DNA of 64,000 bases, from contig JAFLCB010000009.1 of assembly GCA_017302795.1 (NCBI GenBank), positions 62,001 to 126,000 on the forward strand, in the 5' to 3' direction. The translations under genes and the position numbers were made by a program. Positions within the stretch are counted from its first letter, which is position 1. The number at the start of each line of letters is the position of its first letter. Below, one piece after another: positions 1 through 17,400 of this stretch. The notes under the pieces are model-generated. The model had not been told where the DNA came from and did not search any database. It worked only from the letters and a program-made list of their open reading frames with translations. The stretch comes from Deltaproteobacteria bacterium (GTDB taxonomy: Bacteria; Bdellovibrionota; Bdellovibrionia; Bdellovibrionales; JAMPXM01).

Positions 1-774
1 GAACTTCTAACTCATGTGGATCTTTGGTCGGAGGCCAACGGAGTGTCGAAGATCTTTGGGCCGATGATTTACAACACTTGGTTTCCCTATCGCGCGAAAA
101 TGTACAGCCATCAAGTCGGCCCAAGCGGCGATGGTCAGATTGATTACACTTGGGAGCCTCACCAGCCGCGAGGTGACGAAAATGCTTGGCAAGCTCATGG
201 CTATAAGGTCATTGAAACTTATGCGACGCGCGCGCTTAATGGACTTTCGGAATTTACCTCACGTCAACTTCCAGCCTTGGACCATTCAATTGAGCAGGGA
301 TTCACATCCCATTCATTTTCTTCTTTGATGAGTAAACCCGCCGATCGAATTCGGCTCTTGAATGATTTGTTTGATTTGACGATGGAAAGCTTTAAGGGTG
401 CCTTCTTGTTTTTGCCGATTTCAAGAGAGCACTTTCATCAGCTTTATGTTGCCGGACTTTCAGAGATCAAAGACCTTTCTATGTCGTTCCTCATTCGATC
501 GAAGGACGGAAAACCTGCAGCGTTCAGTTTTGCTTTTCCTGACGGTCGTTACATCGTTGTTAAAACGCTAGCCGTGGGTGAGGAATTCAGGGGCAAAAAG
601 CTTTCCAATGCCGCAATGGCACTTTCGTGCCAAGTGGCTTTGGGTCAAGGTTTGGACAAGATGATTCACGCGCTTATGCGGCGAGGCAATATAAGCGAAA
701 ATTTTGGTGGGAAATCTGAACTTTTGTGGGAGCACCAATACGCACTCTTTGCCAAAGAGCCGAAATCTCGCTAG
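1..774 (+). CDS. GNAT-like N-acyltransferase, 5' end outside window
   Basis: The reading frame is open from the first base of the window, so the GTG at 16 is unlikely to be the true start and the N-terminus is missing. About 257 codons are visible. An early FGPMIYNTWFPYR stretch and the later segment with KTLAVGEEFRGKKLSNAAM look like a GNAT fold acetyl-CoA/acyl-CoA binding region (V-x-x-x-x-R-G-K/x-G/L). The substrate cannot be read from the sequence. It ends 12 bases before the next gene on the same strand, so the two may be co-transcribed. GNAT membership is inferred from these motifs and is moderately sure. Confidence 0.6.
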   Translation, partial: ELLTHVDLWSEANGVSKIFGPMIYNTWFPYRAKMYSHQVGPSGDGQIDYTWEPHQPRGDENAWQAHGYKVIETYATRALNGLSEFTSRQLPALDHSIEQGFTSHSFSSLMSKPADRIRLLNDLFDLTMESFKGAFLFLPISREHFHQLYVAGLSEIKDLSMSFLIRSKDGKPAAFSFAFPDGRYIVVKTLAVGEEFRGKKLSNAAMALSCQVALGQGLDKMIHALMRRGNISENFGGKSELLWEHQYALFAKEPKSR

Positions 775-786
775 CAGTCATTCACA

Positions 787-2454
787 ATGAAGAATCGAAT
801 TAATCTGCTTTTGTCTTTTGCCCTAGCGCTCATATTTCTCACAGGTTCAACACTCACTTCTGTGGTGGCGTTGGCGTCAGGCGCACCGACCAGTTTTGAG
901 CGTCATCAGCTTCGGCCGAAATTGATTGTCGTCCTTGTAATTGATCAATGCCGCTCTGACTTTTTAACTCGTTTTGCAAAACGAATGGAAGCTAGTCGGT
1001 CGCGCGGCCTAAGCTATCTGATGAAAAATGGCGCCTACTACCCAAATGCGAAATACGACATCTTGCAAAGTATGACTTGCCCTGGTCACGCCACGGTTTT
1101 GACCGGCGCCTATCCCAATCAGATGGGGATTCCGCTTAACGAATGGTACGACACATCGATTAAAGAAGAAGTTTATTGCGCCGCCGATCCGTCAAGCCCG
1201 ATCGTTGGGCGAGAGGCCCCTGCCAAAGAGGGAATGAGTCCGCGCCGTCTTGTGGGATCGACTGTTGGAGACGAACTCAAGATTGCGGGTTATGGCACTA
1301 GAACGGTCGCGATCGCTTTGAAAGATCGATCGGCGATCATGATGGGCGGGCACTTAGCGAATCTTTCGCTGTGGGTTGAAGATGGAAAATGGGTTTCCTC
1401 GAAGTACTATTTAAAAGACGGAAAGCTTCCGGATTGGGTCACGCAATTAAATAAAAAAATTGAGAGCGAACGTGGACAAGTGTTTGAATGGGAAGTCCCG
1501 GGCGCACCGTCGGGTTTGACGTCTCCGTCTTCCTCGGCCAAAAAGAAAGTGAAAGTCGTGATTGATGCAAAGGAGGCCTTTGCGACTCAATACGGAGTGA
1601 AGGTGACAACCGATGCGGCGATAAAAGCGGTCGCAGAATTTAAACTTGGTAAGGGTCCGCACACGGATATTCTGGCCGTTAGTTATTCGTCCCACGATCT
1701 CCTCGGTCACCAAAAAGGTCTTCAGGCTCCCGAGATGGAAGACCTTACTATGTACGAAGATGAGAGCATTGGGCTTTTGATCGAGGCCATTGATTCCGCT
1801 GTCGGTTTGAAAAATGTAGTTTTCGCTATGACAGGTGATCATGGAGTTGCGCCGGCCGTGCAGGTCGTGAAGCCATTGGGAATAGATGCAGGCACTTTTG
1901 ACAAGTCTCTTGTTCAGGAGGCCGGCGAACATTTGGAAAAGAAGTTCGGAAAGAGTCGACTTGGTCCTTTCATTTTACGAGTACGATCGTTTAACTTCTA
2001 TCTTGATCCCGCCGTGATTTTGGCAAAGAAACTTCGGCGCGAAGATGTAGAGGCGGAATTGAAATCGTTTTTACTTCAAGCAAAAGCCAACGGGGAAATC
2101 GGCCGAGCGGGCGTTGCTGATGCGTTCACTCGCACAGAATTTGAGAAAAAACTTTTTCCCACTGGCCGATTCGGACGTCAGCTTCGAAATACTTATGTCG
2201 TCGGAAAATCTGGTGACGTAATACTTATTCCGAAGCCTTTCTGGGTCTCGGAAGGCGCCTTCGCGACCCATTTAACTGGCTATGAATATGACCGATCTGT
2301 ACCTTTAATTTTAGCAGGTGAGCGCTTCAAGGCCGGAGTTTATGCCGAGCCAGCGGAGGTCACCGATTTGGCGCCCACGCTAAGCCATATACTTGGACTT
2401 GTGGCGCCGTCTGGATCTGACGGACGTATCCTTCACGAAAGTTTGAAGCCTTAA
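787..2454 (+). CDS. Secreted PafA-type alkaline phosphatase / phosphodiesterase
   Basis: A 555-residue member of the alkaline phosphatase superfamily (type I phosphodiesterase/PafA group), expected to hydrolyse phosphate esters in the periplasm. A signal peptide covers about residues 1-33. The metal and nucleophile residues are in the PafA order: Asp53 in VIDQCRSDF, the nucleophile Thr97 in SMTCPGHAT, Asn118 in PLNEWYD, the D-x-x-x-H of SHDLLGH, the DH of MTGDHG, and a late His in FATHLTGYEYDRSVPL. The spacing of Thr97 and Asn118 equals that of Thr79 and Asn100 in Chryseobacterium PafA as I remember it. No Pho-box-like repeat is obvious upstream. Confidence 0.85.
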   Translation: MKNRINLLLSFALALIFLTGSTLTSVVALASGAPTSFERHQLRPKLIVVLVIDQCRSDFLTRFAKRMEASRSRGLSYLMKNGAYYPNAKYDILQSMTCPGHATVLTGAYPNQMGIPLNEWYDTSIKEEVYCAADPSSPIVGREAPAKEGMSPRRLVGSTVGDELKIAGYGTRTVAIALKDRSAIMMGGHLANLSLWVEDGKWVSSKYYLKDGKLPDWVTQLNKKIESERGQVFEWEVPGAPSGLTSPSSSAKKKVKVVIDAKEAFATQYGVKVTTDAAIKAVAEFKLGKGPHTDILAVSYSSHDLLGHQKGLQAPEMEDLTMYEDESIGLLIEAIDSAVGLKNVVFAMTGDHGVAPAVQVVKPLGIDAGTFDKSLVQEAGEHLEKKFGKSRLGPFILRVRSFNFYLDPAVILAKKLRREDVEAELKSFLLQAKANGEIGRAGVADAFTRTEFEKKLFPTGRFGRQLRNTYVVGKSGDVILIPKPFWVSEGAFATHLTGYEYDRSVPLILAGERFKAGVYAEPAEVTDLAPTLSHILGLVAPSGSDGRILHESLKP

Positions 2455-2706: not shown

Positions 2707-3102
2707 TTAGCTTCCTCGAAGTTTACGATCTAGAGAAAAACGACCGGCGCCTTGAAGCACCAACAATACACACGCGGCAAGATAGAGCAGCGACAGCTCC
2801 TTTTTCGAAAAAGGGTCCATGGCGTGTGCGCCGAATGCGGCAACCAACATTGTGAAACCTAGAAACAAAGAAGAAGCCCGGGTGTAAAGTCCGGCGGCTA
2901 TCAATAGTCCGCCGAGGAACTCAGCAAGTGAAGCTGACCACGCAAATATTGTCGGCAAAGGGAAACCCATCTGGCCGACTTTTGCGATGAATCCTTCGGC
3001 CGGAGGTATCTTACCCAAGCCATGGGCGAAGGCCATTGCCAGACCAATAAACATTCGAAAAATAAATAGGCCTAAATCTGGATTGTGAACAAGTTTTTTC
3101 AT
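2707..3102 (-). CDS. DoxX family membrane protein
   Basis: A 131-residue integral membrane protein of the DoxX/DoxD family with four hydrophobic segments and the family's GLGKIP and EFLGGLLIAAGLYTR stretches. I start it at the ATG at 3102, which has AAAGGTG five bases upstream; a GTG 15 bases earlier overlaps the stop of the preceding gene and has no such site. It is the last gene of the nine-gene lipid-type run. DoxX proteins are linked to membrane redox or quinone-related roles in some bacteria; the function here is unknown. Confidence 0.85.
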   Translation of the reverse strand: MKKLVHNPDLGLFIFRMFIGLAMAFAHGLGKIPPAEGFIAKVGQMGFPLPTIFAWSASLAEFLGGLLIAAGLYTRASSLFLGFTMLVAAFGAHAMDPFSKKELSLLYLAACVLLVLQGAGRFSLDRKLRGS

Positions 3103-3113
3103 TGCGGCACCTT

Positions 3114-4214
3114 TCACTTTTTTTCGAAGATATCGAACTCGTAGACGCCAGTCGTGTCAAGGTCCCGAGCCCACTCTTCCTCGGCTCGCAGTTTCTCCCA
3201 GCCGCCCGAAGCGATTTCGGGTGGTCTTCTTAAGAAACTTCTGATCACGACACGCGACCCACTTCGGGTTTGGCTTGGAAGATTATTTAAAAGTGCGATC
3301 GCTTCGGCTTCCGGAATGTAGGATATTGTGTCGGAAAGTGAAACGAAGTCGTAAGGCGTAAGCTTGATTGCGTTGAGTAGGTTGTCTTGCCGATAATTCA
3401 CTTTGGTTTCTGCTTTTTCGATTGATTCTAGAATGTCTTCGCGAGCTTCGAGCGGTAGCCCTTCCTCGTAATAAATTCCGCCCAGAAAAAGAATCTGCAG
3501 GAAGTAGTTTTTTCGAATCAGAGTTCTGGTGAATAGGCGCGTGAATTCTTCTTCAATAAACACCGACGGCGCTCGACTTTCTGTTCGGCGATCTGCTTGC
3601 CCTGAGAAATGCCCTTTATAGAGAAACCGATTGAATACGAATTCGCTGGCAGCAATTCTGACGAAAGCCTTGAAAACAAGTGGTTTGAAGTGTCTTTTGA
3701 AAAGTTTGGCCTGTTCTTGAAGCGAGTGAGCTTCAAATATCGGACGTGTGTCGATTCGAAGGACCTCGCGAAAGACACGTCCCATTTTTTGAAAGTGTCC
3801 CTCCCAGCGTCCCAGCAAAACAAACCCGCGGGGTGTCCACGCATTTTTACGGTCTAGCCAAAATCGAAATGTTTTTTCGGAGAGAAAAGGTTTTAATGAA
3901 ATGAAGACTTCTAGTCGGTCATCGCCAGAAATCGAGTTCCCCGGAATTCCGCCCCGGTAGCCGAGAAGAAATAAAAACTCATCGCGACTTAAATGTTTTG
4001 CTGCAGCAACTCGCAATTCAACTAAGGCGAGTTGCTCGAGAGATAGATCTATGACGTCAAGGTTCCTAGGGTTTTTAGCTAAAAGCGGGAGCACTCGCGC
4101 GCCGCTCCCACCAATGCAGAATACTGATTCCAAGTCGTCTTTTAGAAGTTTCCACTCGATTCGCGTGTCTTCATTGGAAAGGGTGTAGTTGAGACTTTGA
4201 AAGTATTCGCTCAT
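3114..4214 (-). CDS. DUF3419 (BtaA-like) aminocarboxypropyl transferase family
   Basis: A 366-residue protein of the DUF3419/BtaA family. BtaA moves the 3-amino-3-carboxypropyl group of S-adenosylmethionine to diacylglycerol in betaine-lipid synthesis. The SAM-fold signature is seen early: VFCIGGSGARVLPLL followed by DVIDLSLEQLALVELR, the usual glycine loop and acidic strand end. Near the C-terminus come SLSDTISYIP and a second Rossmann-like part. The start ATG overlaps the stop of the barrel gene by four bases, so the two are translationally coupled. No BtaB-like N-methyltransferase is present nearby, so the product need not be a betaine lipid. Confidence 0.75.
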   Translation of the reverse strand: MSEYFQSLNYTLSNEDTRIEWKLLKDDLESVFCIGGSGARVLPLLAKNPRNLDVIDLSLEQLALVELRVAAAKHLSRDEFLFLLGYRGGIPGNSISGDDRLEVFISLKPFLSEKTFRFWLDRKNAWTPRGFVLLGRWEGHFQKMGRVFREVLRIDTRPIFEAHSLQEQAKLFKRHFKPLVFKAFVRIAASEFVFNRFLYKGHFSGQADRRTESRAPSVFIEEEFTRLFTRTLIRKNYFLQILFLGGIYYEEGLPLEAREDILESIEKAETKVNYRQDNLLNAIKLTPYDFVSLSDTISYIPEAEAIALLNNLPSQTRSGSRVVIRSFLRRPPEIASGGWEKLRAEEEWARDLDTTGVYEFDIFEKK

Positions 4215-5353
4215 AGTGTAAGGCCCCCAGTGTATTCCAGACGAAAGCCGATCGTTTTTTCCTCTGTTAAGTTCTGCGCTTGGCCAAGTAGTCGTCCCGC
4301 TTCGCCACGATATGTTTGTGCCCCCGCCGAGGCCGTAAACCCAGATGTAAATTCGTAAGCAACCCGAATAGACGAATAAAGATCTCTTTGTGAATTCGGC
4401 GATCCAAAGCCCTTCAGTAGGTCCAGCTCAAAGGTCCACTTTTCCTTCGTGTAGCGAACAGGAATATAGGCAATCGCTTCTCCCGTTGCGGCAAGAAGAA
4501 GAGCATCTCGATAGATGGTAAGCTGGGGGCCAACGAACCATTCGTCGAGAAACCAATCTGATCCGAGCGTCAAAAAAAGAGCATCGCGATCGGAATTTCC
4601 GACCTCGGTTTTTACAACGACGTCGTTAAAGGCATAGGAACCTTGCAGGCCACTAATGATTTCATTTTTCCCAAGGCGCGGTTCGAGCTTGTGAGATCCG
4701 ATGATCGCTAGATCGAGCAAACCTATTTTTGCAGACGCCCGAAGGGCTGTCTCGTGCAGGTCTTCTCGCTCTCGGTTTGCGACAGGTTGAGCAAAGCGAA
4801 TCGGTGCCGATTTGTAGACCCGTACGAGATCGACATCGAATGCTTGCTCGAATATTTTGCCAGATTTTGTGATCCGAATTGCATCTGGATGGGTCAACTG
4901 ATCGAGAAGTGGATCCAAAAAGAATCGATTGAAGCGTCGGCCACTGAAGAGATCAAGTGAGGGTAGTGTCCAACTCTGACTCCATCGTATAGGTTGACGT
5001 CCCACCCGCAGGCCCAAAGAGTCATAAGTGAGATCCACCCAAGCTTCGTTTAAGTCAGATTCATCGCGCGATTTCCTAATATCTGGGGCCCCTAAGGGCC
5101 GAAGGTTTTCCTCAGCCAAATCTCTTGTCACAAATCCTTCAAGACGAAATCGGTAGGCGGACAAACCGCTTTGAGCCATCACATCTAACGCCGATCTCAA
5201 GTAGAGTTCTCGTTTGAACTCTTGCTGAAGGCTATTGCCACTTTGCCATCCGTCAAGGCGGGGAACAAATTCGAGCTGCAGTTCGGCCGCAGAGGTTTGC
5301 GACGTGAATACGGTCGAGAGCGTTAGCAGCAACATGATCTGAAAACGTCTCAT
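4211..5353 (-). CDS. Outer-membrane beta-barrel protein, DUF1302-like
   Basis: A 380-residue protein with a signal peptide (about residues 1-22, cut after TSAA) followed by alternating amphipathic strands throughout, as in a porin-like barrel. The RVGRQPIRWSQSW segment recalls barrels encoded next to LolA-like carriers in lipid export loci. The start overlaps the LolA-like gene stop by four bases, and its own stop overlaps the BtaA-like gene by four. The pairing with a LolA-like protein suggests outer-membrane delivery or export of a hydrophobic product. The family assignment rests on context and strand pattern only. Confidence 0.65.
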   Translation of the reverse strand: MRRFQIMLLLTLSTVFTSQTSAAELQLEFVPRLDGWQSGNSLQQEFKRELYLRSALDVMAQSGLSAYRFRLEGFVTRDLAEENLRPLGAPDIRKSRDESDLNEAWVDLTYDSLGLRVGRQPIRWSQSWTLPSLDLFSGRRFNRFFLDPLLDQLTHPDAIRITKSGKIFEQAFDVDLVRVYKSAPIRFAQPVANREREDLHETALRASAKIGLLDLAIIGSHKLEPRLGKNEIISGLQGSYAFNDVVVKTEVGNSDRDALFLTLGSDWFLDEWFVGPQLTIYRDALLLAATGEAIAYIPVRYTKEKWTFELDLLKGFGSPNSQRDLYSSIRVAYEFTSGFTASAGAQTYRGEAGRLLGQAQNLTEEKTIGFRLEYTGGLTL

Positions 5354-6084
5354 CGAACCTTCTCGAGGGACTGCGTTGTAAACAACGAATCAGGAAGATC
5401 TGCTGGGTTCATCTCGAGGATTGTAATGGATGAAGACTTTCCTGTGACGTCTTCAATTATCAGTTCAGTGGGTCGCAAAGAACCCGCGATGGTTTTATAG
5501 CTCGTGTACTTTGCTCGTTTAAGGACGGTTTTTCCGTCGAGTCCAAGAAACTCCGCTCGACTTGGCCGGCCATTTGTCCGGTTGACCCAAAGTCGAATCT
5601 TTGAATAGGTCAGCATTTGTTTAGTGCCTTCCAGGAATATTATCGATTCTTCGCCGTCCTCTTTTTCTAGCGTAGCTTTATAGTCGCCGTGCCACCTGGT
5701 TCTCGCAATATCTCCGTTTGAAATTTCACCGGACATTTTTTGCGCCAGCGAAAGGCGAACAGATTTTTTTAAGTTTGGGATGTAGGCGTGAAAGTCGCGA
5801 TCAAGCATCAGCATGTTTCGTCCGCGGTCTTTGGTCGGACTTTTCACAATGACCAAGGTCTTGTCTTTCCCTTTCAGAAACACCTCAAAGATCTGATCCG
5901 TGGATGAGGTTTTGACGCCGATTTTCATCTTGTATACTTCCGATGGATTTCGAACGTCGTCGGCCATTTTTAAAAGTAAATCTGGCGAAACGCTCTCAAG
6001 CGCCATTGACGGATCGAGATTGAAGAGGAAAGCAATCGCGCATGCCAGCGCCAACTTTGACCTTATACTTGAATGGGTGATCAT
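5350..6084 (-). CDS. LolA-like outer-membrane lipoprotein-sorting family protein
   Basis: A 244-residue periplasmic protein with a signal peptide (cut near SMALES) and the LolA-like fold of the PF17131 type. Typical stretches are KDRGRNMLMLDRDFHAYIP, NLKKSVRLSLAQKMSG, and a late PTELIIEDVTGKSSSITI. Such proteins shuttle a hydrophobic cargo across the periplasm, but members outside true LolA are found beside lipid exporters. The ATG at 6084 is chosen because AAGAGGAAA lies just upstream and because it overlaps the preceding stop by four bases; an earlier in-frame codon at 6117 lies inside the upstream gene. Confidence 0.8.
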   Translation of the reverse strand: MITHSSIRSKLALACAIAFLFNLDPSMALESVSPDLLLKMADDVRNPSEVYKMKIGVKTSSTDQIFEVFLKGKDKTLVIVKSPTKDRGRNMLMLDRDFHAYIPNLKKSVRLSLAQKMSGEISNGDIARTRWHGDYKATLEKEDGEESIIFLEGTKQMLTYSKIRLWVNRTNGRPSRAEFLGLDGKTVLKRAKYTSYKTIAGSLRPTELIIEDVTGKSSSITILEMNPADLPDSLFTTQSLEKVR

Positions 6085-6818
6085 TGTTTTTCCTCTTGGG
6101 GGCCGGTTAAGCCCCATAGGTCTTGGGGGCCGTAGATGAGAGTGCCTCGATGAGACATCATGGCTGCATTGAATGCGGCTGTCGCAACCGTTGCTGCAGG
6201 AATCGGCTTAATGGTAAGTGGTAGACCGCCAGGCAGTATCCGTCCGATCGTCGTTAAAATGGTGTCCGTTACGGATTCACCCAGGCGGGAATTTTCTCGG
6301 TGGCCCTTTAGAAGTGCGGGACGGAGAATTCTCAAACGCTCGAAATTCAATTTTTGAATATCTCGTTCCAATTCGCCCTTCATGCGTACATAGAAAAATG
6401 GCGAGCGAGCATCGGCACCAGCCGCCGAAATAAGAACCATTGCTTTTCCACCATTGGTACGGAAAGCGCGAGCGACTTCCATTTGATGATGATAGTCGAC
6501 TTTGTATTGTTCTTCTTTGGTCTTTGCTTGCTTAAGAGTCGTGCCCATGGCCGAAAATAGAACATCGCCGTTCAGTTTATCGCGCCACCCATCAGAAGGA
6601 TGATTGAGCTTCTCGAAATCAACTACGTGATTCACCAGATTTGGTGCTTCAGTCGGAAAAGGCCGGCGGGTAAAAACTGTCACGGTCGACACCAAACTCA
6701 ACTCTGGCTTTAAAGCCGAATGCCTGAGAAGGAATTGAACGAACTCGCTGCCGACGAGGCCTGTGGCACCAATGACATTGAAATGAAGTCCATTTTTCAC
6801 AGCCGTTCTAGTCTCCAC
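6081..6818 (-). CDS. NAD(P)-binding SDR, HTATIP2/TIP30-like
   Basis: A 245-residue atypical short-chain dehydrogenase. The dinucleotide loop NVIGATGLVG is at about residues 14-23, the conserved LISAAGAD serine strand follows mid-protein, and the YVRMK motif supplies the Tyr-x-x-x-Lys pair. There is no signal peptide, so it is cytoplasmic. It sits 20 bases after the acyl-ACP-reductase-like gene and overlaps the LolA-like gene. Its substrate is unknown; the operon suggests a lipid intermediate. Confidence 0.8.
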   Translation of the reverse strand: METRTAVKNGLHFNVIGATGLVGSEFVQFLLRHSALKPELSLVSTVTVFTRRPFPTEAPNLVNHVVDFEKLNHPSDGWRDKLNGDVLFSAMGTTLKQAKTKEEQYKVDYHHQMEVARAFRTNGGKAMVLISAAGADARSPFFYVRMKGELERDIQKLNFERLRILRPALLKGHRENSRLGESVTDTILTTIGRILPGGLPLTIKPIPAATVATAAFNAAMMSHRGTLIYGPQDLWGLTGPQEEKQ

Positions 6819-6838
6819 GGTTTACGGTCTCGAGACTA

Positions 6839-8974
6839 CTATGAAAGGCCCCGCGCTTTCAACGCGAGAGCGCGACAGAGTGCGATCTCTTTTTCTGAAA
6901 TAACGCCGGATGGCCCACGGATCGTGGCCAATTTAACACCGTGTTCAATCGAAAGCTTGTAGATTTGCTTTACTCGCTGCCAATCAAGATCTCGACCTAG
7001 TGTGAAAGGCTCATATCGTTCCTCCATCGCTAGAACTGCCGTTTCGCCGAGGCAGGCATAGACCACATCTCTTGGGAGGCCGATATCGCAGTTCAATTGG
7101 CCGGAAGACCCGGGTAGCATAACTTCCCCAGACTCAATAAACAAGACGTCGGGTCGTGCTAAGACATCCTCCATGTTAAAATCAAGGGGGCGCGAGCAAT
7201 CGCACACGATGCAGCCTGGCTTTAGCTGACGAACGTCGACCACCTTTTGATCGAACGCGGACGTTGCAGTGACAAGTACGTCGGTGTGAGCAGCGACAAA
7301 GTTGGCGTCCGTCGCCAAGCGTATTTCGGTCCGCGGACTGAGAGATGAGATTTCGATTCCCAATTCTTCTAGTCGATCCATGCGTGGAGCAATCAGACAG
7401 ACTCGTTCGAAAACCAATGAAAGTAGTTTTGCCGAGACTTTGCCGATGGAACCAGTCGCGCCGATGACAGTTGCTGTGCCATTTACTAGACCGGTATTTT
7501 TATTTCGAGTTAGAATCCCCATTTTTTCGACAACTTCGTGCACTGCCCAAAGTGTCGCTGACGCAGAGAGCGAATTGCCAGTCGTCACTGGAATTGGACT
7601 CATACGATTGATGGTTGCGCCGGCATCGCCAACGATTTTTGTATAGGCTCCAAGACCTATTATTTTCGCTCCGTGATCGGCGGCGTGATGACAAAGACGC
7701 CCAATTTTTTCATAAGTCACCTCCGGTGCTTCGTTTCGCATCACTCTGGGTGTGGCAAACAAGCCATAAAGAATCCCAGTTACTTCGCGCCCGGTTTTTT
7801 TACTTACGATCCCACTCATGTTTCCGTACACAATTCCCGGAAGTTTGGCGGTGGATCTTTCAATTAGGGGATGGAAGTTTTTTGGCAGGTTTCGAGCGAG
7901 CGATAGGCCAGGGGCACGCGTGAGATCTCGAAAACTGAGAGAGTGCAGAACGAACGCAAAGTCTGGCTTTTCAATCGCTGACTTTTTATTGGATGCCTTC
8001 ACCCTTGATTTCACAAGCCGCGTTTGAATAGAGGGTCGAGCGGTCATGACATATCGCCGAGTTTCATGCGATACCTCTGTTTGGCTTTCTAAAATTTCTT
8101 GCCACTCCTCCAAAGAAAGTGGAGCCGTTTTTTTCTTCAACAGTCTAAGACAAGCATCGATGGAGGAGTAGGTCAGGCGCGGGTCCCAATTTTCAAATTT
8201 CTCGGGGAGAGATTTGTGAATGGCTTTGGCACCGAGATTCTCAATCTCTTTTAGTACTTTGGGGTCAGAGGTTGTGACTAGGATTTCGCGACCCCGTAAA
8301 ATGTCTGTCTCCCTCGAGAATAAGTGGATGAGATAGGGATCGCCCCAGATGTATCTGTAGGCTCCGAGCTCCTGAATCAACTGAGCTAATCGTCTTGGCT
8401 TTTTAACGTTCGCCGCTCGCGGAGCGAGGTTCCCCATGTCGCGAAACTGCGCAACACCGAGTCCTAGTTTGGTTAATTCCAAAAGTAAGGGCCACGGTTT
8501 CGCAACAATGGGTAAACCAAGGCCGGCATAGAGATCGCCGAATCCAATCCGTGCGCCAAATCTTTCATGAACCGTCGATAGGGCTTCCATGTGCAATAAG
8601 CCAACTGGAAAAAAGATTCCATCCCGAGGTTCGACTACTCCGGATTTTACCAAATTAACGATGCCGTTTACTTCGGCTAATTCTCGAAGTCGTTCACCAC
8701 TACAAAGTGGAATCGACACGGGAGTCGACATTACATCGAGGGCTTGGCGGTGCGTATAAACCTTGTCTCGAAAGCGAATCTCGGTTGGAAATCCGGAAAT
8801 AGCAATGGCATCGACTTGCGATCTTAAGCGTTCGATCAATCGTTTGAGATTGTCGACCGAATATTCGACCCCAAAGCGTTGCAATTCGAAATCTGCACCC
8901 TGGACAGTGAACCTTGTGGCGAAATCCCAGCGTGAGCTTCCAAAACTAAGCTCAGCGACTCTGTATGTAGGCAT
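6839..8974 (-). CDS. Fusion protein: unknown N-terminal domain + acyl-ACP reductase-like domain
   Basis: A 711-residue protein. Residues from about 350 to 700 match the cyanobacterial long-chain acyl-ACP reductase (AAR) family in order: GLGAYTKIV, TTGNSLSASA, the NADPH loop VIGATGSIG at about 503-511, and the catalytic-cysteine segment ending VVYACLGET with Cys near 641. AAR reduces acyl-ACP to fatty aldehyde. Residues 1 to about 320 form a separate domain starting LSFGSSRWD that recalls clostridial proteins annotated as quinate 5-dehydrogenase; a basic linker joins them. AAR alone is about 340 residues, so this is roughly twice the size. The start at 8974 has GGAAGGGG four bases upstream; a start at 9001 lacks a good site. 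It overlaps the upstream SDR gene by 23 bases. Confidence 0.75.
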   Translation of the reverse strand: MPTYRVAELSFGSSRWDFATRFTVQGADFELQRFGVEYSVDNLKRLIERLRSQVDAIAISGFPTEIRFRDKVYTHRQALDVMSTPVSIPLCSGERLRELAEVNGIVNLVKSGVVEPRDGIFFPVGLLHMEALSTVHERFGARIGFGDLYAGLGLPIVAKPWPLLLELTKLGLGVAQFRDMGNLAPRAANVKKPRRLAQLIQELGAYRYIWGDPYLIHLFSRETDILRGREILVTTSDPKVLKEIENLGAKAIHKSLPEKFENWDPRLTYSSIDACLRLLKKKTAPLSLEEWQEILESQTEVSHETRRYVMTARPSIQTRLVKSRVKASNKKSAIEKPDFAFVLHSLSFRDLTRAPGLSLARNLPKNFHPLIERSTAKLPGIVYGNMSGIVSKKTGREVTGILYGLFATPRVMRNEAPEVTYEKIGRLCHHAADHGAKIIGLGAYTKIVGDAGATINRMSPIPVTTGNSLSASATLWAVHEVVEKMGILTRNKNTGLVNGTATVIGATGSIGKVSAKLLSLVFERVCLIAPRMDRLEELGIEISSLSPRTEIRLATDANFVAAHTDVLVTATSAFDQKVVDVRQLKPGCIVCDCSRPLDFNMEDVLARPDVLFIESGEVMLPGSSGQLNCDIGLPRDVVYACLGETAVLAMEERYEPFTLGRDLDWQRVKQIYKLSIEHGVKLATIRGPSGVISEKEIALCRALALKARGLS

Positions 8975-10094
8975 GATACCCCTTCCAGAGTGACGCTTCA
9001 TAATCTTTAAAGCGTGGATAAAAATCTACTCCCAAAATTGAATCGCTGTCCGAGGTGTCAATGGCTGGCAGATTTAAAACGTATTCGATTTCTTCACGCG
9101 GAAGTCGAGTGAGCCATTCCGCGATCGGCTTCACGATGGATCCAGGAATATTTTCGACGGTTCGAACTTCGCGGTGGAGTCCGAGATTACTGAGAGCGGA
9201 TTGAAAAAGTGATTCGACGGTTGGTCCGTTTGAAGGTGCAACATAATAGCTTAAAAGCGGTTCCTTAGATTCGAGAAATGACTCGAGCAGCGACGCAATT
9301 GCTTTTCCAGCATAGTCGACTGGAACAAGCGGAATCGTGTGGTTCTTTCTTCCGGGAATAACAATTGTTCCGCGCCAAGCCTCGATGAACGTGCGCATTC
9401 TTCGGAATGCGTCGATGGCATGGTAGGGTCCATCGATCCGACGAATCGCCGATCCATCCGTTGCACCCACTAATATACCCGGGCGTAAAATCAGTTTCCT
9501 TTTTGGAAAGTGAGACTCCCAGGCGCGCACAGTTTTTTCACCGCTTGCTTTCGATTCAGCGTAGGCGTCTGGAAAAGGTCCTCGTGATTGGTGGCTTGCG
9601 GTTGCAGGCAAGCCGGCTATTTGGTCGCTTGAGTTATCGTTGGAATTGAAAAAACTTGGGCGACTGATCAACTCGTCTTGGGTTTGCTTAGCTTTTTCTT
9701 TGGAGGACAAAGTCCCAAGTCCCATGGTGACGGCGACCGTCGAGACATGGGCGAAACAGGGAACTTCGAGGTGCTGCGCAATTGCAAGTGCCGTGTGGGT
9801 GGCAAAAACATTGTTGAGGTAGGCATCTTCTTTCGATACTCGGAGATTATAGAGGCCTGCCATATGAAGCATAAGATCGAATTTTCCAGTCAATGAATTG
9901 AGCAACTCTGCTTCAAGTCCACCGTTCCAGTTGGTCAGGTCGCAAACTAAACTCTGCACTGAAGAAGACTTACTGACCGGAAGTTTTTTTCGCGACACGA
10001 GAGTGATCTCGGTTCCGGGCCCAAATTGATTTAAAATTTCGGAGATGACAGCCGGGCCAAGAAACCCAGTGCCACCGGTGATAAGGATTCTCAT
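8952..10094 (-). CDS. Extended SDR, fatty-acyl reductase / epimerase type
   Basis: A 380-residue NAD(P)-dependent reductase of the extended SDR class. It has the TGGTGFLG loop at residues 6-13, a HVSTVAV serine strand near 116-122 and a YAESK catalytic motif at 178-182. The overall shape (VTRLP-like C-terminal half, long insert before the YxxxK) fits the NAD_binding_4 group that includes fatty acyl-CoA reductases and OleD-like enzymes. The start overlaps the lipid kinase stop by four bases. The acyl substrate is inferred from the neighbours. Confidence 0.75.
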   Translation of the reverse strand: MRILITGGTGFLGPAVISEILNQFGPGTEITLVSRKKLPVSKSSSVQSLVCDLTNWNGGLEAELLNSLTGKFDLMLHMAGLYNLRVSKEDAYLNNVFATHTALAIAQHLEVPCFAHVSTVAVTMGLGTLSSKEKAKQTQDELISRPSFFNSNDNSSDQIAGLPATASHQSRGPFPDAYAESKASGEKTVRAWESHFPKRKLILRPGILVGATDGSAIRRIDGPYHAIDAFRRMRTFIEAWRGTIVIPGRKNHTIPLVPVDYAGKAIASLLESFLESKEPLLSYYVAPSNGPTVESLFQSALSNLGLHREVRTVENIPGSIVKPIAEWLTRLPREEIEYVLNLPAIDTSDSDSILGVDFYPRFKDYEASLWKGYHAYIQSR

Positions 10095-11095
10095 GGTGTG
10101 TCCTCGGCCCCAAGAAATACCGGTAGAGCACGCTTAAGACAGGTCACTTCAATTTCTCGGACTCCATGGTGAAGGATTTCTCCGTCTCCAAAAAAAGTAA
10201 GATCTCTTGCATCGCTCTTAGACCGGAAGACCGCATGTGAAGTTTCCAAGCGGGGACATTGTTTTTCGTCGGGCACTTGACCATTTCGTATCTGCCACAG
10301 CGATTTCGCCAGCGCGATTATTCCCAGAGATTCTACCAACAAAATGTTGAAGGTCCCGTCCGTATTGGAGGTAAGAGGGGCGGGGATATACTTTCCGCCT
10401 AGGCCCGGTTGATTGTTAACCATAATAAACGGGGCACTGGTACTTCGCTTCAACCCCCCATCTATTTCAATTGATACGCACCAACCGCGTAGCCACTTCG
10501 TGGATTTTCCGCTTAAAAGCTCTTTTGCTAGGAGCAGTTCGTAGATTCTCGAACCCGCCAAACGAATTGCTTCTTTAGAAAAGCGTTTTCCGTCGGATCT
10601 CACATTTGCCCTCACACGGTTGGCAAGTTCGGCAGTTTCAGCGGCCAAGCCTAAACCGCCATTTGTCAGCATATAGACGATGCCTTGTTTGGACTTAACT
10701 TCGATAACGTCAATGGCGCTTGGTTCTGATTCGATAATTCGGCGGGCAGCTCTTTCCAATCGATCGGTGATGCGAAGCTCGCTTGCTAAATCATTCGCCG
10801 TGCCCACGGGAAGCGGTAGGATAGGTGGGATTCGGAATGGCGAGTTTGAAGCGATTCCATTTCTGTAGGCCATTAATAGTGGCTGTACGGCGTTGTTAAG
10901 TGTGCCGTCGCCGCCGCAAATCACGAGCGCATCGGATTCATTGGAGGCAGAGAGGACCTCGCTTTGGAGAGCTTCTTTTGATGACGGTTTGAAATATCGA
11001 AGCTCAGTTCTAAAAAGGGCGCGATCGCACGCCCTCTGAATCGCTTCAAAGTTGGCCCGGCCAGCTTGTCCATTGACGAAGACCGAAACTTTCAC
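10091..11095 (-). CDS. Diacylglycerol kinase family lipid kinase (YegS/DgkB type)
   Basis: A 334-residue cytoplasmic kinase of the DAGK catalytic family, transferring phosphate from ATP to a lipid hydroxyl such as diacylglycerol, or to a sphingoid-type base. The nucleotide-binding GGDGTLNN is at residues 61-68 and the PLPVGTANDLA loop follows. A later NGGLGLAAE and a C-terminal DGE motif complete the family pattern. It begins three bases after the stop of the secreted-protein gene and overlaps the SDR gene, so it belongs to the lipid operon. Confidence 0.85.
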   Translation of the reverse strand: MKVSVFVNGQAGRANFEAIQRACDRALFRTELRYFKPSSKEALQSEVLSASNESDALVICGGDGTLNNAVQPLLMAYRNGIASNSPFRIPPILPLPVGTANDLASELRITDRLERAARRIIESEPSAIDVIEVKSKQGIVYMLTNGGLGLAAETAELANRVRANVRSDGKRFSKEAIRLAGSRIYELLLAKELLSGKSTKWLRGWCVSIEIDGGLKRSTSAPFIMVNNQPGLGGKYIPAPLTSNTDGTFNILLVESLGIIALAKSLWQIRNGQVPDEKQCPRLETSHAVFRSKSDARDLTFFGDGEILHHGVREIEVTCLKRALPVFLGAEDTP

Positions 11096-11098
11096 GTC

Positions 11099-12661
11099 CT
11101 ACTTCCCTTTGGACCTGTTGGCCTTTTCCTTTGCCGCGTTTTTGATCTCAGCGATTCCTTTTTCAAGGCGTTTTGCTGACTCGGTCATTTCCTTAATTGC
11201 AACTGACGATTTTTCTATCATATTTACCGACATACGCGCACCCATTCCGAGCGCGACGCGAGTCACTTCAATGGTTTTACCCGCCCCACCTAGAATTGCA
11301 CCTGCGGGAGGAAGAATCAGCGAGACTTTGAATTCTTTGTCGGCTTGCGCCAGTTTCACATAGGCGTCAGAGGTTTTATCTTGTTGAACATTTTCATACT
11401 CGACCGCTGTCAGAAAGCGGTGGGCCGCTTCGTCTCGATTTAACTTCGATTCCACGACTGCGACTGAGCCCGCCAATGCCCCAACGCCGGCACCGATGAG
11501 CCAAGGGGTAAAAAATGGAACGACGATGGCCGTTACCGCCAGCGGAATACCGATTGCTAAATCGTTGCCCAGTTTTCGGTTTTCTTTCGTGTAGAAGAGC
11601 GAAGTTGCGAGACCGCAATACTGCGGTGACTCCTGAAGAACCTTCTCAAGTTGGGTCGAAAAGTCGAGAATACCCAATGCTCGGGGATCGATTTCTGTCA
11701 CCGGCTTTCGACTTAACGCAACGCCACTTCGGCCCATGTGTATGATATGTGTCCGGTTGGTGAGTTGAAGAAGTTCTTTAGTCGATTTTAAGTCCGAACC
11801 GATGTGTTTTCGCATGACTTTGATGCCATTCAAAATCTCTCTGTCCGACGGTTCGGAACTTTCAATAAACTGGAGAAGGGGCATGCGACTAAGGGTGTTG
11901 AGATAGGTGTAGCCATTTTTAAGTCTAGCGCCAAGTACAGCGTCGTTCACGAACTTAACGTATTCTGCGGAACCTGGCTTATGGTATCGAGCCGCTTGAG
12001 TTTTCGATTCTGAAATGTATTGCCCGAGAATTTCAACTGCGCTTTCGCGTTCTGGTTTTGATAGGCTTTTCCAGTCTTTTTCCTTTTGGCTTCCGCGAGC
12101 GTCCAAAGAAAAATTCAAACTTTGTTCAGCAGACTTGGTGAGAAGCGTTCCGTAGTCTTTTGCGTTTTGTGAGAGTGCGAGATCCATTCGTGCCCCGGCA
12201 ACTTCTCTCAAAAACGCAGACTTCCAGCTATCGACAATTTCAGAAATGTTTGCCGGACACAGGGTTGGCTTAAGGGGTTTCGAGAGGCAATCTTCAATAG
12301 CTTTCAGAAATCCGTCCTCTCCTTCGAGGTCTGAAACTGCGGTTTGACCAACAAGATTTAAAAGTTCTTTTGAAGAGCGACCTTTTTTGTCGGAGTTTGG
12401 AATTGAACGATGAAAAAGCCCTGATGCTGGGCGATCTTTCAACAATTCGGGATCCTCGCAAGCTGTCGCAAAGGGTGCGACCTCGGCTTTTTGTGCTGCA
12501 TTAGAAATGTCCTCTAAGCTCTGCGGTGAATACTGCTGATTCAGCATGCCCGATTCGGGATCACAGTATTCGAAAAACCCATCTGCAAACGACACTGACG
12601 CCGAGAGATAGACAGCTAAAGTCAGAATTAAATTAAATTGCAGCCGAATTTCCATCCGCAT
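11099..12661 (-). CDS. Secreted or membrane-anchored protein of unknown function
   Basis: A 520-residue protein that I do not recognise. It has a signal peptide (residues 1 to about 26), a long helical and charged middle with scattered cysteines, a hydrophobic pair around residues 365-405 (AIGIPLAVTAIVVPFF and a Gly/Ala-rich segment), and a lysine-rich coiled-coil-like tail. It is the first gene of the nine-gene lipid run and is followed after three bases by the lipid kinase. Several ATG codons lie close together at the start, so the exact N-terminus is uncertain by a few residues. Confidence 0.65.
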   Translation of the reverse strand: MRMEIRLQFNLILTLAVYLSASVSFADGFFEYCDPESGMLNQQYSPQSLEDISNAAQKAEVAPFATACEDPELLKDRPASGLFHRSIPNSDKKGRSSKELLNLVGQTAVSDLEGEDGFLKAIEDCLSKPLKPTLCPANISEIVDSWKSAFLREVAGARMDLALSQNAKDYGTLLTKSAEQSLNFSLDARGSQKEKDWKSLSKPERESAVEILGQYISESKTQAARYHKPGSAEYVKFVNDAVLGARLKNGYTYLNTLSRMPLLQFIESSEPSDREILNGIKVMRKHIGSDLKSTKELLQLTNRTHIIHMGRSGVALSRKPVTEIDPRALGILDFSTQLEKVLQESPQYCGLATSLFYTKENRKLGNDLAIGIPLAVTAIVVPFFTPWLIGAGVGALAGSVAVVESKLNRDEAAHRFLTAVEYENVQQDKTSDAYVKLAQADKEFKVSLILPPAGAILGGAGKTIEVTRVALGMGARMSVNMIEKSSVAIKEMTESAKRLEKGIAEIKNAAKEKANRSKGK

Positions 12662-13232: not shown

Positions 13233-14405
13233 CTATTGCAATACCAATTTGTTGATAGCTTTCAAAAAGTCGCGCATCGCTTTTTCTGCCTGATCGTCCC
13301 CTCGATTGGTGGCAATCAAAACGATTAAATCTTTGTCGGGAAAAAATTCTGCTGTGGCAAAGTTAAGCGTGTTGCTTCCGCTGTGTTGGAAAACTGGGGT
13401 CTTCAATTTCTCGTCATTTATTCCCCAGCCGCCGTAAACATAAAACTCATTTCCTTTTTGAAAATAGATTTTCGATAGGCTTTGATCAGTCAGCAAAACT
13501 CCTTTTCCTCTCCAGATCAGAATCAGTTCGGCGATGAACTTGTGCCAATCCCGAAGGTTGCAGTGGACCGTACCCGCGGGCCCTAACATCGGCGGATTGT
13601 CAGCTTTTTCTTTTGGTGGAATTCCAACCAGCTTACCTTGGACTAAACCATGTGGCCAAGGCTGTGAGGGAAGGGTCTCAGTTTCTGCGCCTGCCACACC
13701 ATAGCCACATGAAGTCATCGAGAGCTTGTCGAAGATCTTTTGCTTCAGGAGATTTTCCCAAGACGTCTCATAGAGCTTTTCAAGGACCGCACCTAAAATG
13801 ATATAGTTGATATTTCCATAGCGGAAATTTCGATCGGGCTTGCCGCTGGTTACCACTGTTGCCGGGGGCTCTTTCATGGATGCGAGGCTCATTTCAAGAC
13901 GCTGTAAGCTGACATTCTTCTTTGACTTAAAAAGTTCTTTCCAGAGTTTTCCGGCTTGGACCTCTTGAACATCTCTTAAGGCGCTTGAATGAGTTAAAAG
14001 ATTTCCGACAGTTAAATCATTGTTTAACGGGTGTGCCAGTTTTACGTTAAGCAGCTCTTTGACTTTTGATTCGTAAGCGAGCTTACGCTCTTCAGCAGCC
14101 ATAGCGACAAGAAGGGCAGTCATCGCTTTGGTGTCTGATCCAAGATGCCACCGATCATCTTCTTTAACTTCAGCCTCAAGCTGGATTGCTCGTTTCCCTT
14201 GGCTCCTTTGGAAAACGGTGTTGCCGCTGGAAGTAATGAGCGCCGCGATGCCAGGTAAGCCGCCATGGATATGTGCTTCGTCCATTGATTTTTGAAGGGC
14301 TAATCTCAAAACTGAAAGATCGCGGATAGGTGTTTCACTGACCACGCTTGTCTGACAGGCCGTTAAACTTAGAAGAAAAACAAGCATGTACCGTAGCGTG
14401 TTCAT
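13233..14405 (-). CDS. Lipoprotein serine hydrolase, class C beta-lactamase family
   Basis: A 390-residue penicillin-binding-protein-like hydrolase anchored as a lipoprotein: the lipobox LTAC places the lipidated cysteine at residue 17. The three active-site motifs are present: SDTK at residues 90-93, Y-G-N in FRYGNINYII, and HSG in VFQHSGSNT in place of KTG. Members include DD-peptidases, esterases and class C enzymes; HSG instead of KTG favours an esterase or peptidase over a true beta-lactamase. Its ATG overlaps the stop of the RND pump gene by four bases. Confidence 0.85.
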   Translation of the reverse strand: MNTLRYMLVFLLSLTACQTSVVSETPIRDLSVLRLALQKSMDEAHIHGGLPGIAALITSSGNTVFQRSQGKRAIQLEAEVKEDDRWHLGSDTKAMTALLVAMAAEERKLAYESKVKELLNVKLAHPLNNDLTVGNLLTHSSALRDVQEVQAGKLWKELFKSKKNVSLQRLEMSLASMKEPPATVVTSGKPDRNFRYGNINYIILGAVLEKLYETSWENLLKQKIFDKLSMTSCGYGVAGAETETLPSQPWPHGLVQGKLVGIPPKEKADNPPMLGPAGTVHCNLRDWHKFIAELILIWRGKGVLLTDQSLSKIYFQKGNEFYVYGGWGINDEKLKTPVFQHSGSNTLNFATAEFFPDKDLIVLIATNRGDDQAEKAMRDFLKAINKLVLQ

Positions 14406-17400
14406 GAGGGTATGAGTCTCGACATTAAAGACTTTGTCATTCGTTTGAAATCTTCAAGGATCAAATAAGCGGACGGAATCCAAATAAGGCTCAAGACAGT
14501 TCCTACTATCATCCCCCAACTGAGCGCAAGTGTTATCGGAATCAATAGTGGATCGTTGCCGCCGATTCCAAAAGCTGTCGGCAGAAGTCCAACAACGGTC
14601 GTCAAGCCAGTGGCAAGAACTGCTCTAAGGCGCATTTGGCTTGCGCGAATAAGGATTTCGGTGAGGCTATTCTCGGAACTCTCGCGCCTTAGCTCCTCAA
14701 TAAAGTCGACCAAAATAATCGCTGAATTGATGACAACGCCCGAAAGGCCGACCACGCCAATGAACGCAAGAAAGCTAAGCGGTCGTTGGTTGAGTGCAAA
14801 CGAATAGAGAACGCCGACCAGGCCAAGAGGGATGGACGACAGAATAATAAATGGTTTCGAATAGCTTTTGAACGTAAAGACGAGAGTCGCAAAAATCCCA
14901 ATAATCGATAGAACAAGTGCTATTCCTAGTGAGCGAAGCGAGTCTTTCGTACTTTCGTCCACTCCGCCAAAAACTGTGCTAGTGGACTTCGCATCACTCA
15001 TTGTGCGCTGGAGGATTTTTCTCGCCTCCGCATTGGCTCGAACAGAACTAGTGAGCGTTTCGTTGATATCGCCAGAGATGGTAATCGAACGCCTAAAGTC
15101 ATAGCCGCGAATCACAGAAGGGGCATTCGTTTCGCTGATTTTGCCAATCATGTTGAGCGGCGTTTGGTTGCCTGAAGAATTCGTTACTCTTGTTTGCTGG
15201 ATGTCTTCGATGTCTTCTCGGTCCTTCGAGGCATACTTTACTGTGACGTCATATTCGAGTCCGCGATCGGTGAGTTGTGCAATCGGAAGTCCTTCGATCG
15301 CTGCCCTCAAATTGAGTCCAACGAGATCTAAATTTAAGCCCACGAAGGCAACGCGTTCGTCGTTTGGTTTATAGGAGTACTCTCGACCGGCCTCCACCAG
15401 ATCTGTTTCGACGTTTATGAGACCTGGAATTTTGGCGAGTTCGGCCTGAAATTCCTTCGCTTCACGTTCAAGCTCTGCTGTGTTCGTTGAACGCAATGTT
15501 ATTGTCACGGGTTTCCCAACAGGTGGTCCACCTTGGATCGTTTCGAAAACCACTTTCGAAAGCTCTGGCGGTGACTTTATCTCGCGAAGCTTTTTCAGTG
15601 TGTCTTCAATGCCCAATTTCAAATAGCGATCATTTTTAATTCTAATGAGCAAAAAACCTACGTTATCGCCGTTCTTTGCTTTCGGATCGCCAGCTCCGAC
15701 CTGCTGAATTCCACTGCGAGCAACAATGCTGTCGATGTTATCCCCAAGTACTACTGCGATGTCATTTGAAAGTTTAGCGGAGGCCGAATCCACTTTTGAT
15801 ATCAGTGTCTGAGGGGGAGCTTCAAATCTTGCGATATAGTACTCGACACCGTCTGCGGGGAAAAGTTCAAAGCGATTGAAGAGTGCAGTAACGAATACTC
15901 CCGACACCACCAGCACAGTCATGATGCCGGCGGTGATATATTTTTTTTGAACCGTCCACCGAACAAAGCGTCCGAAATAATCTTCGATTTTATTGGAATC
16001 TTTTTCGCGGCCCGTTGCCGGCAGCTTTTTTTTAGTTTCCAAAAATTGAAGTCGAGCGGGGAGAAGTGTCAAAGCCTCAATCAAGCTCAGTACAAGGGCG
16101 ATGGAAACCACAATCGGAATCCATTTGATAAACTGACCGAGTACGCCTTCGGTAACAAGCATGGGCAGGAAAGCTGCGATGATAGTGATTGTCGAGGCTG
16201 TAAAGGGAATCCAAAATTGCTCCGCTGACTTCACAGCCGCTTCCTTAGCAGCCATGCCTTTTTCGCGGAGAGTGGTGTAGTGTTCGCTGACGACGACCGA
16301 GTTATCGACGAGGTTACCAAGACAGATCACAATTGCGATCATCGTGATGATGTTAAAATTTGCACCAAGATACACCATGAACGCGACTGTTCCCAGAGCG
16401 CAGATCGGCAGGCTCGCAGAGCTCCAAAGTCCTACTTTCCCTGGTAAAAACACGAACAAGATACCTAACACCGCAAGCAGGCCGAAGATGGCATTGAACT
16501 GAACGATCTCAAGTCGATTCTTAATCCTTGAACCTTCGTCATTGTAAACAACAATTTTGTGAGTTGAGGGAAGTTTGCTTTCAAATTCTTTCATCTTTAC
16601 GACCAGGGAATCGACGACTGAAATCGAATCAATCTCTTCTTTCTTCGTCACAATCATCAATGTCGCTGGCTCACCATTGACTCGAGCAAGAACGCTTGGG
16701 CGCTTACTGGCATCGACCACTCGTCCGACTTGGGAGATTCGAACCAAGACGCCAGAATCATTGGACCGAATGACAAGATTTTCGATTTCTTTTGGGTCGC
16801 TCGATTGTCCTACAAGTCTCACCAGGGTAGTGTTGTCGATGGTTTCAAGAGAGCCGGCCGGAATATTTTTAAGCCGCGCTTTCATTGCGTTCACAACCTC
16901 AGTAATCCCGACATTTAGACGCTGCAGTTTCTCGCGGTCGAGGAGGATTTGAAGCTCGCGTTCGATGTACCCAGAGTAGCGCACAGATGCGACACCTCTT
17001 ACATCGTCGAACACTTCTTTCAAATCTTCGACATACCGATCTCGCTCGCGATTTTCATTTGGACCAACAATCGCAAGTTCAATGACAGGGATTTCTTTGG
17101 CCTTCACTTCCGTTACCAGCGGCGCATCCAATACTTCAATAGGAAGTAGAGATTTCGCTCGGGTGACCGCACGCTGGATTTCGTTCACGATCTCTTGGGC
17201 GTCTGGCCGATCGATGTCGATTCGAATGGTGATTGTACTTCGGCCGCTTTGGGAAACCGATTTAACATCCTTGAGGCCTGTGGTGCCGCGAAGTTCGTTC
17301 TCGATAATTCTGGTGACACGGTCGTAGACATCCTCCGGCGTCGCGCCGGGATAAATAGTCACGACAGAAACAGTTGCGAAGTTAACGGGAGGAAACGTTT

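Follow-up and report, generated by a model that had tools for sequence, protein, structure and literature searches.

A minus-strand operon in a Bdellovibrionales genome is one half of a widely shared gene set, probably for an unusual amino-headed lipid

Results

Genes at the locus

The window analysed here is a stretch of 64,000 nucleotides (positions 62,001 to 126,000 of contig JAFLCB010000009.1, hereafter C9, assembly GCA_017302795.1) from a 4.23 Mb genome whose family belongs to the same order as Bdellovibrio. A preliminary description of the window had singled out an operon that could plausibly make a lipid and transport it to the outer membrane. A check of the open reading frames (ORFs) of the window places nine of them, all on the minus strand, between 12661 and 2707 (Table 1). 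The distances between successive ORFs are -4, -4, -4, -37, +20, -50, -4 and +3 bases, counted from the 2707 side, so that all nine genes are joined by overlaps or by gaps of at most 20 bases, as described previously. Homologues place the start of the central gene, here termed FUS, at ATG 8974 and not at 9001, which shortens one of the overlaps.

The family names given earlier stand for DoxX, DUF3419, the LolA-like carrier, the two SDRs and the DAGK homologue by Pfam, and for the acyl-ACP reductase (AAR) by NCBIfam and PDB. The beta-barrel is weakly supported: Porin_4 scores 14 bits in Pfam, under the cut-off of 27, and the PDB profile search yielded no usable match.

Table 1. Predicted genes of the operon and of its left flank (window coordinates).
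Feature	Coordinates	Strand	Evidence	Remarks
DoxX-family membrane protein	2707..3117	-	Pfam DoxX 6e-16	final ORF of operon; nearest relatives only
DUF3419 (BtaA superfamily), predicted S-adenosylmethionine (SAM) 3-amino-3-carboxypropyl transferase	3114..4214	-	Pfam 2e-52	core gene; single copy in the genome
Predicted outer-membrane beta-barrel with signal peptide	4211..5353	-	sub-threshold Porin_4	in Bdellovibrionia kept between LolA-like gene and DUF3419
LolA-like periplasmic carrier (PF17131)	5350..6117	-	Pfam LolA_like 1e-32
HIM1-type SDR	6081..6818	-	Pfam 5e-11	nearest relatives only
FUS, tandem AAR-like protein (moderate inference)	6839..8974 (ORF to 9001)	-	PigE/AAR matches, fold, alignment
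SDR, NAD_binding_4 / thioester-reductase-like type	8952..10094	-	Pfam NAD_binding_4 1e-25
DAGK/YegS-family lipid kinase	10091..11095	-	Pfam DAGK_cat 1e-17
520-aa protein (g9) with signal peptide	11099..12661	-	no Pfam match	first ORF of operon; nearest relatives only
GNAT N-acyltransferase	1..774	+		start lies 246 bases beyond the left window edge; last gene of AMP-ligase-UbiA-PEPS-GNAT operon
Type I phosphodiesterase / PafA-like phosphatase	787..2454	+		directly downstream of GNAT; nearest relatives only

Conservation of the operon

A scan of GTDB genomes for FUS returned 80 loci, nearly all with titles from Bdellovibrionota (Bdellovibrionia, Bacteriovoracia, Oligoflexia/Silvanigrellia); among 60 relatives, 17 have FUS, one of them of an aminotransferase type described below. 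Adjacency and gene order were compared over 89 non-redundant loci. The SDR of the NAD_binding_4 type adjoins FUS in 79/79 loci, and DAGK adjoins this SDR in 72/73. DUF3419 adjoins FUS in 44 of 66 loci; in the remainder the LolA-like and barrel genes lie in between, an arrangement confined to Bdellovibrionia, or DUF3419 is in a second operon nearby. The conserved gene orders are DAGK-SDR-FUS-DUF3419 and AMP-ligase-UbiA-PEPS, where PEPS denotes a PEP-synthase-like protein of about 910 aa. The gene set thus recurs in other genomes, and a unit for lipid-directed biosynthesis and outer-membrane transport that is co-inherited across the phylum is supported. The 520-aa protein, the HIM1-type SDR and DoxX occur in the nearest relatives only, as does the phosphatase of the left flank, and none of the four is counted as core. 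Of the nine genes first grouped together, the DAGK-SDR-FUS-DUF3419 core stands as a set, and g9, the HIM1-type SDR and DoxX are local additions.

An RND pump (14402-17506) and a protein with a beta-lactamase fold (13233-14405) near the operon were considered as pathway parts and discarded, being not conserved with the cluster. The pump is of AcrB type, and no gene for a periplasmic adaptor is visible right next to it; the beta-lactamase-fold gene follows the pump.

A second operon with AMP-ligase, UbiA, PEPS and GNAT

When all ORFs of the loci were clustered, more partners proved to recur: PEPS, an AMP-ligase that is in many cases joined to a UbiA-type protein, LolD/LolCE-like ABC genes, and genes for a GNAT, a formyltransferase and a P450. 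In the genome studied here, the AMP-ligase, UbiA, PEPS and GNAT genes constitute a plus-strand operon at positions 56556-62774 of C9; its last gene, GNAT, runs into the window as the leftmost ORF there. Together with the phosphatase gene, this operon converges on the minus-strand operon. It was missed earlier because it lies on the plus strand and mostly to the left of the window. The minus-strand operon is hence incomplete as a pathway: it makes up half of a larger gene set that Bdellovibrio-like predatory bacteria widely share.

In 14 diverse UbiA members the first Asp-rich motif, DExKDxxxD, is invariant and RPLPRG is also kept, both as in the archaeal digeranylgeranylglyceryl phosphate synthase, which is the best PDB match of the UbiA profile (2e-9). 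In contrast to the archaeal enzyme, the second motif is replaced by an invariant ExxRK, the match covers the first half only, and the genomic context is bacterial. An early guess that the AMP-ligase and its neighbour were a pair of OleB-OleC type was abandoned once the neighbour proved to be UbiA. PEPS consists of ATP-grasp (PPDK_N) and swivelling PEP-utilizers domains only, with an invariant catalytic histidine and no pyruvate-binding barrel. It resembles PigC/RedH and rifampin phosphotransferase in domain make-up, and scores 297-343 bits with PigC/RedH.

PDB profile searches with GNAT and DUF3419 gave generic matches or none. Distant relatives of the cluster GNAT, of about 370-380 aa (ORF L134:325-1437 and similar ones), were observed in many genomes of the phylum, some of which lack the pathway. 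In the clusters of the formyltransferase type that were examined, an alpha/beta-hydrolase domain precedes the AMP-ligase, either fused to it or separate; in one Bdellovibrio-type genome (L130:7145-10320) the AMP-ligase has this domain at its N-terminus and adjoins the formyltransferase gene.

Co-inheritance and exchange of the capping enzymes

Co-inheritance was studied with five profiles in the same 173 Bdellovibrionota genomes. FUS is present in 47 of them (45 full-length copies and two fragments), and all 47 also carry DUF3419 and PEPS. DUF3419 was found in 56 genomes and core-type PEPS in 55, all 55 being shared. Counting one weaker syntenic copy, a strong GNAT (>240 bits) is present in 21 genomes and a strong formyltransferase (>215 bits) in 32, one of them outside the core, with both cut-offs placed at visible score gaps after the data had been seen. 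The 55 core genomes comprise 21 with GNAT, 31 with formyltransferase, none with both and three with neither; one of these three is 73% complete and another is fragmented.

On the FUS tree, the GNAT or formyltransferase label switches at least seven times, at least five of them through well-supported branches. Since the exchange is repeated and leaves the rest of the pathway unchanged, the two enzymes would have equivalent functions, namely the acylation or formylation of an amine. The usual substrates of both GNATs and formyltransferases are amines, and the mutually exclusive occurrence of the two types therefore makes an amine intermediate likely.

FUS, an AAR-like protein

The C-terminal half of FUS matches PigE (1e-20) and cyanobacterial AAR (4e-8), and has the AAR fold (Z 32-33, rmsd 2.9-3.4 over 322-352 residues, to 6jzu, 6jzy and 9e4s). 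The catalytic Cys294 of AAR aligns with Cys650 counted from ATG 9001, or Cys641 from ATG 8974, which does not vary across an alignment of 84 sequences; the NADP-binding glycine motif is GATGSIG. The fold and the catalytic cysteine are as in the cyanobacterial alkane pathway (AAR-ADO). In contrast to that pathway, identity is only about 20%, the domains are in tandem, and there is no aldehyde-deformylating oxygenase (ADO) among the recurrent neighbours.

The fold search with the whole of FUS covered the AAR half only, and the N-terminal domain was therefore modelled from 85 sequences (pLDDT 85, pTM 0.85) and searched separately. The top structural match of the model is again AAR (Z 10.7, rmsd 5.0, 234 residues, 7% identity), with the first unrelated fold at 8.6; matches to periplasmic binding proteins and malic enzyme (Z about 8) are taken as common alpha/beta arrangements and were rejected. 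The N-domain alignment has no conserved cysteine; Asp55, His75, Asp147 and Lys229 (from ATG 8974) are conserved. With the same numbering, residues 1-300 would form a degenerate AAR-like domain and residues 330-711 an active-looking acyl-ACP/thioester reductase. The AAR half of the fusion proposed earlier is thus retained, and its partner looks like a second, degenerate AAR-like domain and not like a different enzyme. As the profiles of the two halves match each other only weakly (P 0.005), we keep the tandem reading at moderate strength. Stand-alone relatives of the N-terminal domain, about 320 aa long, were found away from the cluster in three genomes (L118:8863-9840, L119:8977-9915, L120:8559-9542).

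DUF3419

BtaA-type DUF3419 enzymes transfer the 3-amino-3-carboxypropyl group from SAM. The DUF3419 protein of the operon matches the entire Pfam model, and the earlier term BtaA-like is appropriate at the level of the family. The clade itself is very distant from canonical BtaA: the Pfam score is 179 bits for the core protein and 381 bits for the BtaAB-type protein of R. leguminosarum, with a very long branch between them, and the two share SAM-site-like positions only. In R. leguminosarum the methyltransferase gene btaB is directly downstream, whereas no BtaB family is among those recurring at the loci (the rest of the genome was not searched for it). The loci differ from the BtaA/BtaB system also in their additional N-acyl- or formyltransferase, AMP-ligase, UbiA, PEPS and export genes. 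Membership of so distant a clade therefore does not establish a betaine-lipid pathway.

DUF3419 was seen in other surroundings as well: on a Rhizobium plasmid with ketoacyl synthase III, a reductase, an MBL hydrolase and a 'CoF synthetase' (L124:3820-9068), and on a Deefgea plasmid with an iron-containing redox enzyme and a SAM decarboxylase (L123:14258-16487). Several small-molecule pathways seem to make use of this family.

Variants and occurrence outside the phylum

Some Bdellovibrionota without DUF3419 have a fusion of a class-III aminotransferase with AAR. It is found together with UbiA, PEPS and GNAT in two loci (L137:6950-20000 and L138:6734-13970), the first of which additionally has ABC and LolA-like genes, and adjoins PEPS in a third (L032:9566-14708). 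These loci possibly represent a sister pathway for fatty amines, in which the amine would form on the aldehyde itself. This variant gives independent support for the supply of an amine: with either DUF3419 or the aminotransferase-AAR fusion, one and the same UbiA-PEPS-GNAT set would be provided with it.

Outside the phylum, a plasmid of the alphaproteobacterium Roseinatronobacter carries consecutive genes for UbiA, PEPS, DUF3419, a 439-aa protein, GNAT and AMP-ligase. Profiles built from Bdellovibrionota score 145 bits with its UbiA, 526 with PEPS, 90 with DUF3419, 107 with GNAT and 249 with AMP-ligase. The core can therefore also be carried on a plasmid as a unit in its own right, without FUS, DAGK and SDR.

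Export genes

ABC, LolA-like and barrel genes are linked in many loci. The LolA-like carrier and barrel, previously proposed as the export route, would keep this place in Bdellovibrionia; they are specific to that clade, and elsewhere ABC or MMPL exporters are linked in their stead. In one locus without LolA-like and barrel genes, an MMPL-type RND exporter adjoins DUF3419 and could be an alternative exporter (L116:7545-9860). The recurrence of LolD/LolCE-like ABC genes and a LolA-like carrier with the biosynthetic genes is reminiscent of Lol lipoprotein transport (LolCDE-LolA). Here, in contrast, the LolA-like protein is of the PF17131 branch and paired with a barrel, and the cargo is presumably lipid and not lipoprotein.

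Discussion

From the observed gene content, linkage, co-inheritance, exchange of the N-capping enzyme and sister variant we infer a modular pathway whose product is a long-chain lipid with an N-capped amine head. The minus-strand operon would be the reductase, kinase, head-group and export half of this pathway; we give this reading about an even chance. In general terms, the probable role of the gene set is to make an unusual lipid with an amino head and to deliver it to the outer membrane. The following reactions, their order, the product and its location are predictions. The C-terminal AAR domain of FUS would produce a fatty aldehyde from acyl-ACP or acyl-CoA by means of its conserved cysteine and NADPH, and the adjacent SDR would reduce or otherwise process this aldehyde. 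The DAGK homologue may phosphorylate a lipid hydroxyl. DUF3419 could use SAM as the donor of a 3-amino-3-carboxypropyl group for a lipid hydroxyl, making a homoserine-ether head with a free amine to be capped by GNAT in this genome or by formyltransferase in other species. A further building block, acyl or prenyl, would be activated and attached by the AMP-ligase, the membrane transferase of UbiA type and the phosphohistidine enzyme resembling PigC. Finally, a LolCDE/MacB-like ABC exporter encoded elsewhere in the genome, the LolA-like carrier and the barrel could move the product to the outer membrane.

As a more specific and tentative proposal, for which we see rather less than an even chance, we speculate that the product is an undescribed class of outer-membrane lipids, an N-acylated or N-formylated homoserine alkyl-ether joined by the PigC-like ligase to a UbiA-supplied chain. 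It would occur in many Bdellovibrio- and Bacteriovorax-type predators and in scattered other bacteria, with a sister version in which a fatty amine replaces the homoserine ether.

Several observations weigh against this pathway. GNATs and formyltransferases are also able to use hydroxyls or other amines. The core DUF3419 is only about 23% identical to canonical BtaA, with very long branches between them, and at such a distance its acceptor, and even its reaction, may differ. The core is present without FUS in some genomes (L114, L115 and L116), in one also without DAGK and SDR nearby, and the aldehyde branch would therefore be a module that is not essential to the common product. The ABC orthologues of the genome (positions 267982-270032 of contig C3) are unlinked to the operon. 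Fisher P values of co-occurrence (1e-33, 9e-45 and 2e-12) ignore shared ancestry. A scan for promoters and terminators gave a signal no higher than in shuffled sequences, so that co-transcription is suggested by the gene overlaps only.

A diffusible product of the prodigiosin or tambjamine type, condensed by the PigC-like PEPS from the aldehyde of the PigE-like AAR and an amine, and secreted instead of being a structural lipid, is an unlikely alternative, though the least unlikely of those considered. The combination of a PEP-synthase-like ligase with an AAR-type thioester reductase is shared with PigC-PigE and TamQ-TamH, the sister variant pairs a PigE-type aminotransferase-AAR fusion with an adjacent PEPS, P450 genes are often linked to the loci, and a prodigiosin-type cluster on a Thioclava plasmid has the same two enzymes. 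However, no bipyrrole (MBC) genes are among the recurrent partners or in the operons of the window, the AAR is fused to a degenerate AAR-like domain, and the core is phylum-wide and not scattered. To our knowledge, UbiA, DAGK, DUF3419 and the LolA-like and barrel proteins are absent from both pathways.

The family membership of DUF3419 and the adjacent diacylglycerol kinase homologue would also suit a divergent betaine-lipid (DGTS-like) pathway, with DUF3419 acting as BtaA on diacylglycerol, DAGK controlling the diacylglycerol supply and the other genes accessory. We consider this improbable, given the distance of the clade from the R. leguminosarum copy and the lack of BtaB at the loci. Moreover, a betaine head has no free amine for GNAT or formyltransferase, and AMP-ligase, UbiA and PEPS, the most tightly co-inherited genes, would be left unexplained.

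Phosphonosphingolipids have been reported in Bdellovibrio and Bacteriovorax. A sphingolipid-like pathway, in which the DAGK homologue would be a ceramide or long-chain-base kinase, GNAT a ceramide-synthase-like N-acyltransferase and the SDR a ketoreductase, fits this background and the distant relationship of the cluster GNAT to the GNATs of about 380 aa found in many genomes of the phylum. It is nonetheless about as improbable as the betaine-lipid pathway: the recurrent families include no serine palmitoyltransferase-like gene, formyltransferase replaces GNAT in over half of the core genomes, and sphingolipid synthesis as known involves neither DUF3419 nor UbiA nor PEPS, so that the most tightly linked genes remain unexplained. 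Coincidental adjacency, or operon packing of unrelated envelope genes, could apply to g9, the HIM1-type SDR, DoxX and the phosphatase, but as a general explanation it is highly implausible, being already contradicted by the core-gene co-occurrence, with the near-constant SDR-FUS and DAGK-SDR adjacency, DUF3419 and PEPS in every FUS genome, and the same core outside the phylum.

We found no description of the gene set in the open-access literature (subscription papers were not covered), in line with the earlier statement that no described pathway with this gene combination is known. A genome survey reports antiSMASH clusters in the phylum and does not name the set (PMC8067016). The enzymes of the N-capped lipid pathway proposed here are from known families; what appears to be new is how they are combined, that the cap can be exchanged and that the amine has two sources.

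A phylum best known for attacking or invading other Gram-negative bacteria has a pathway of at least eight enzymes that is tightly co-inherited and, it seems, undescribed; B. bacteriovorus, in which gene deletion is feasible, has it as well. The exchange of GNAT and formyltransferase leads to a chemical prediction that is clean and open to test. For the AAR, UbiA, DUF3419 and PigC-like families, the gene set adds new contexts that can be told apart. If the product is an outer-membrane lipid, it could bear on the predator surface, in self-protection or attachment to prey.

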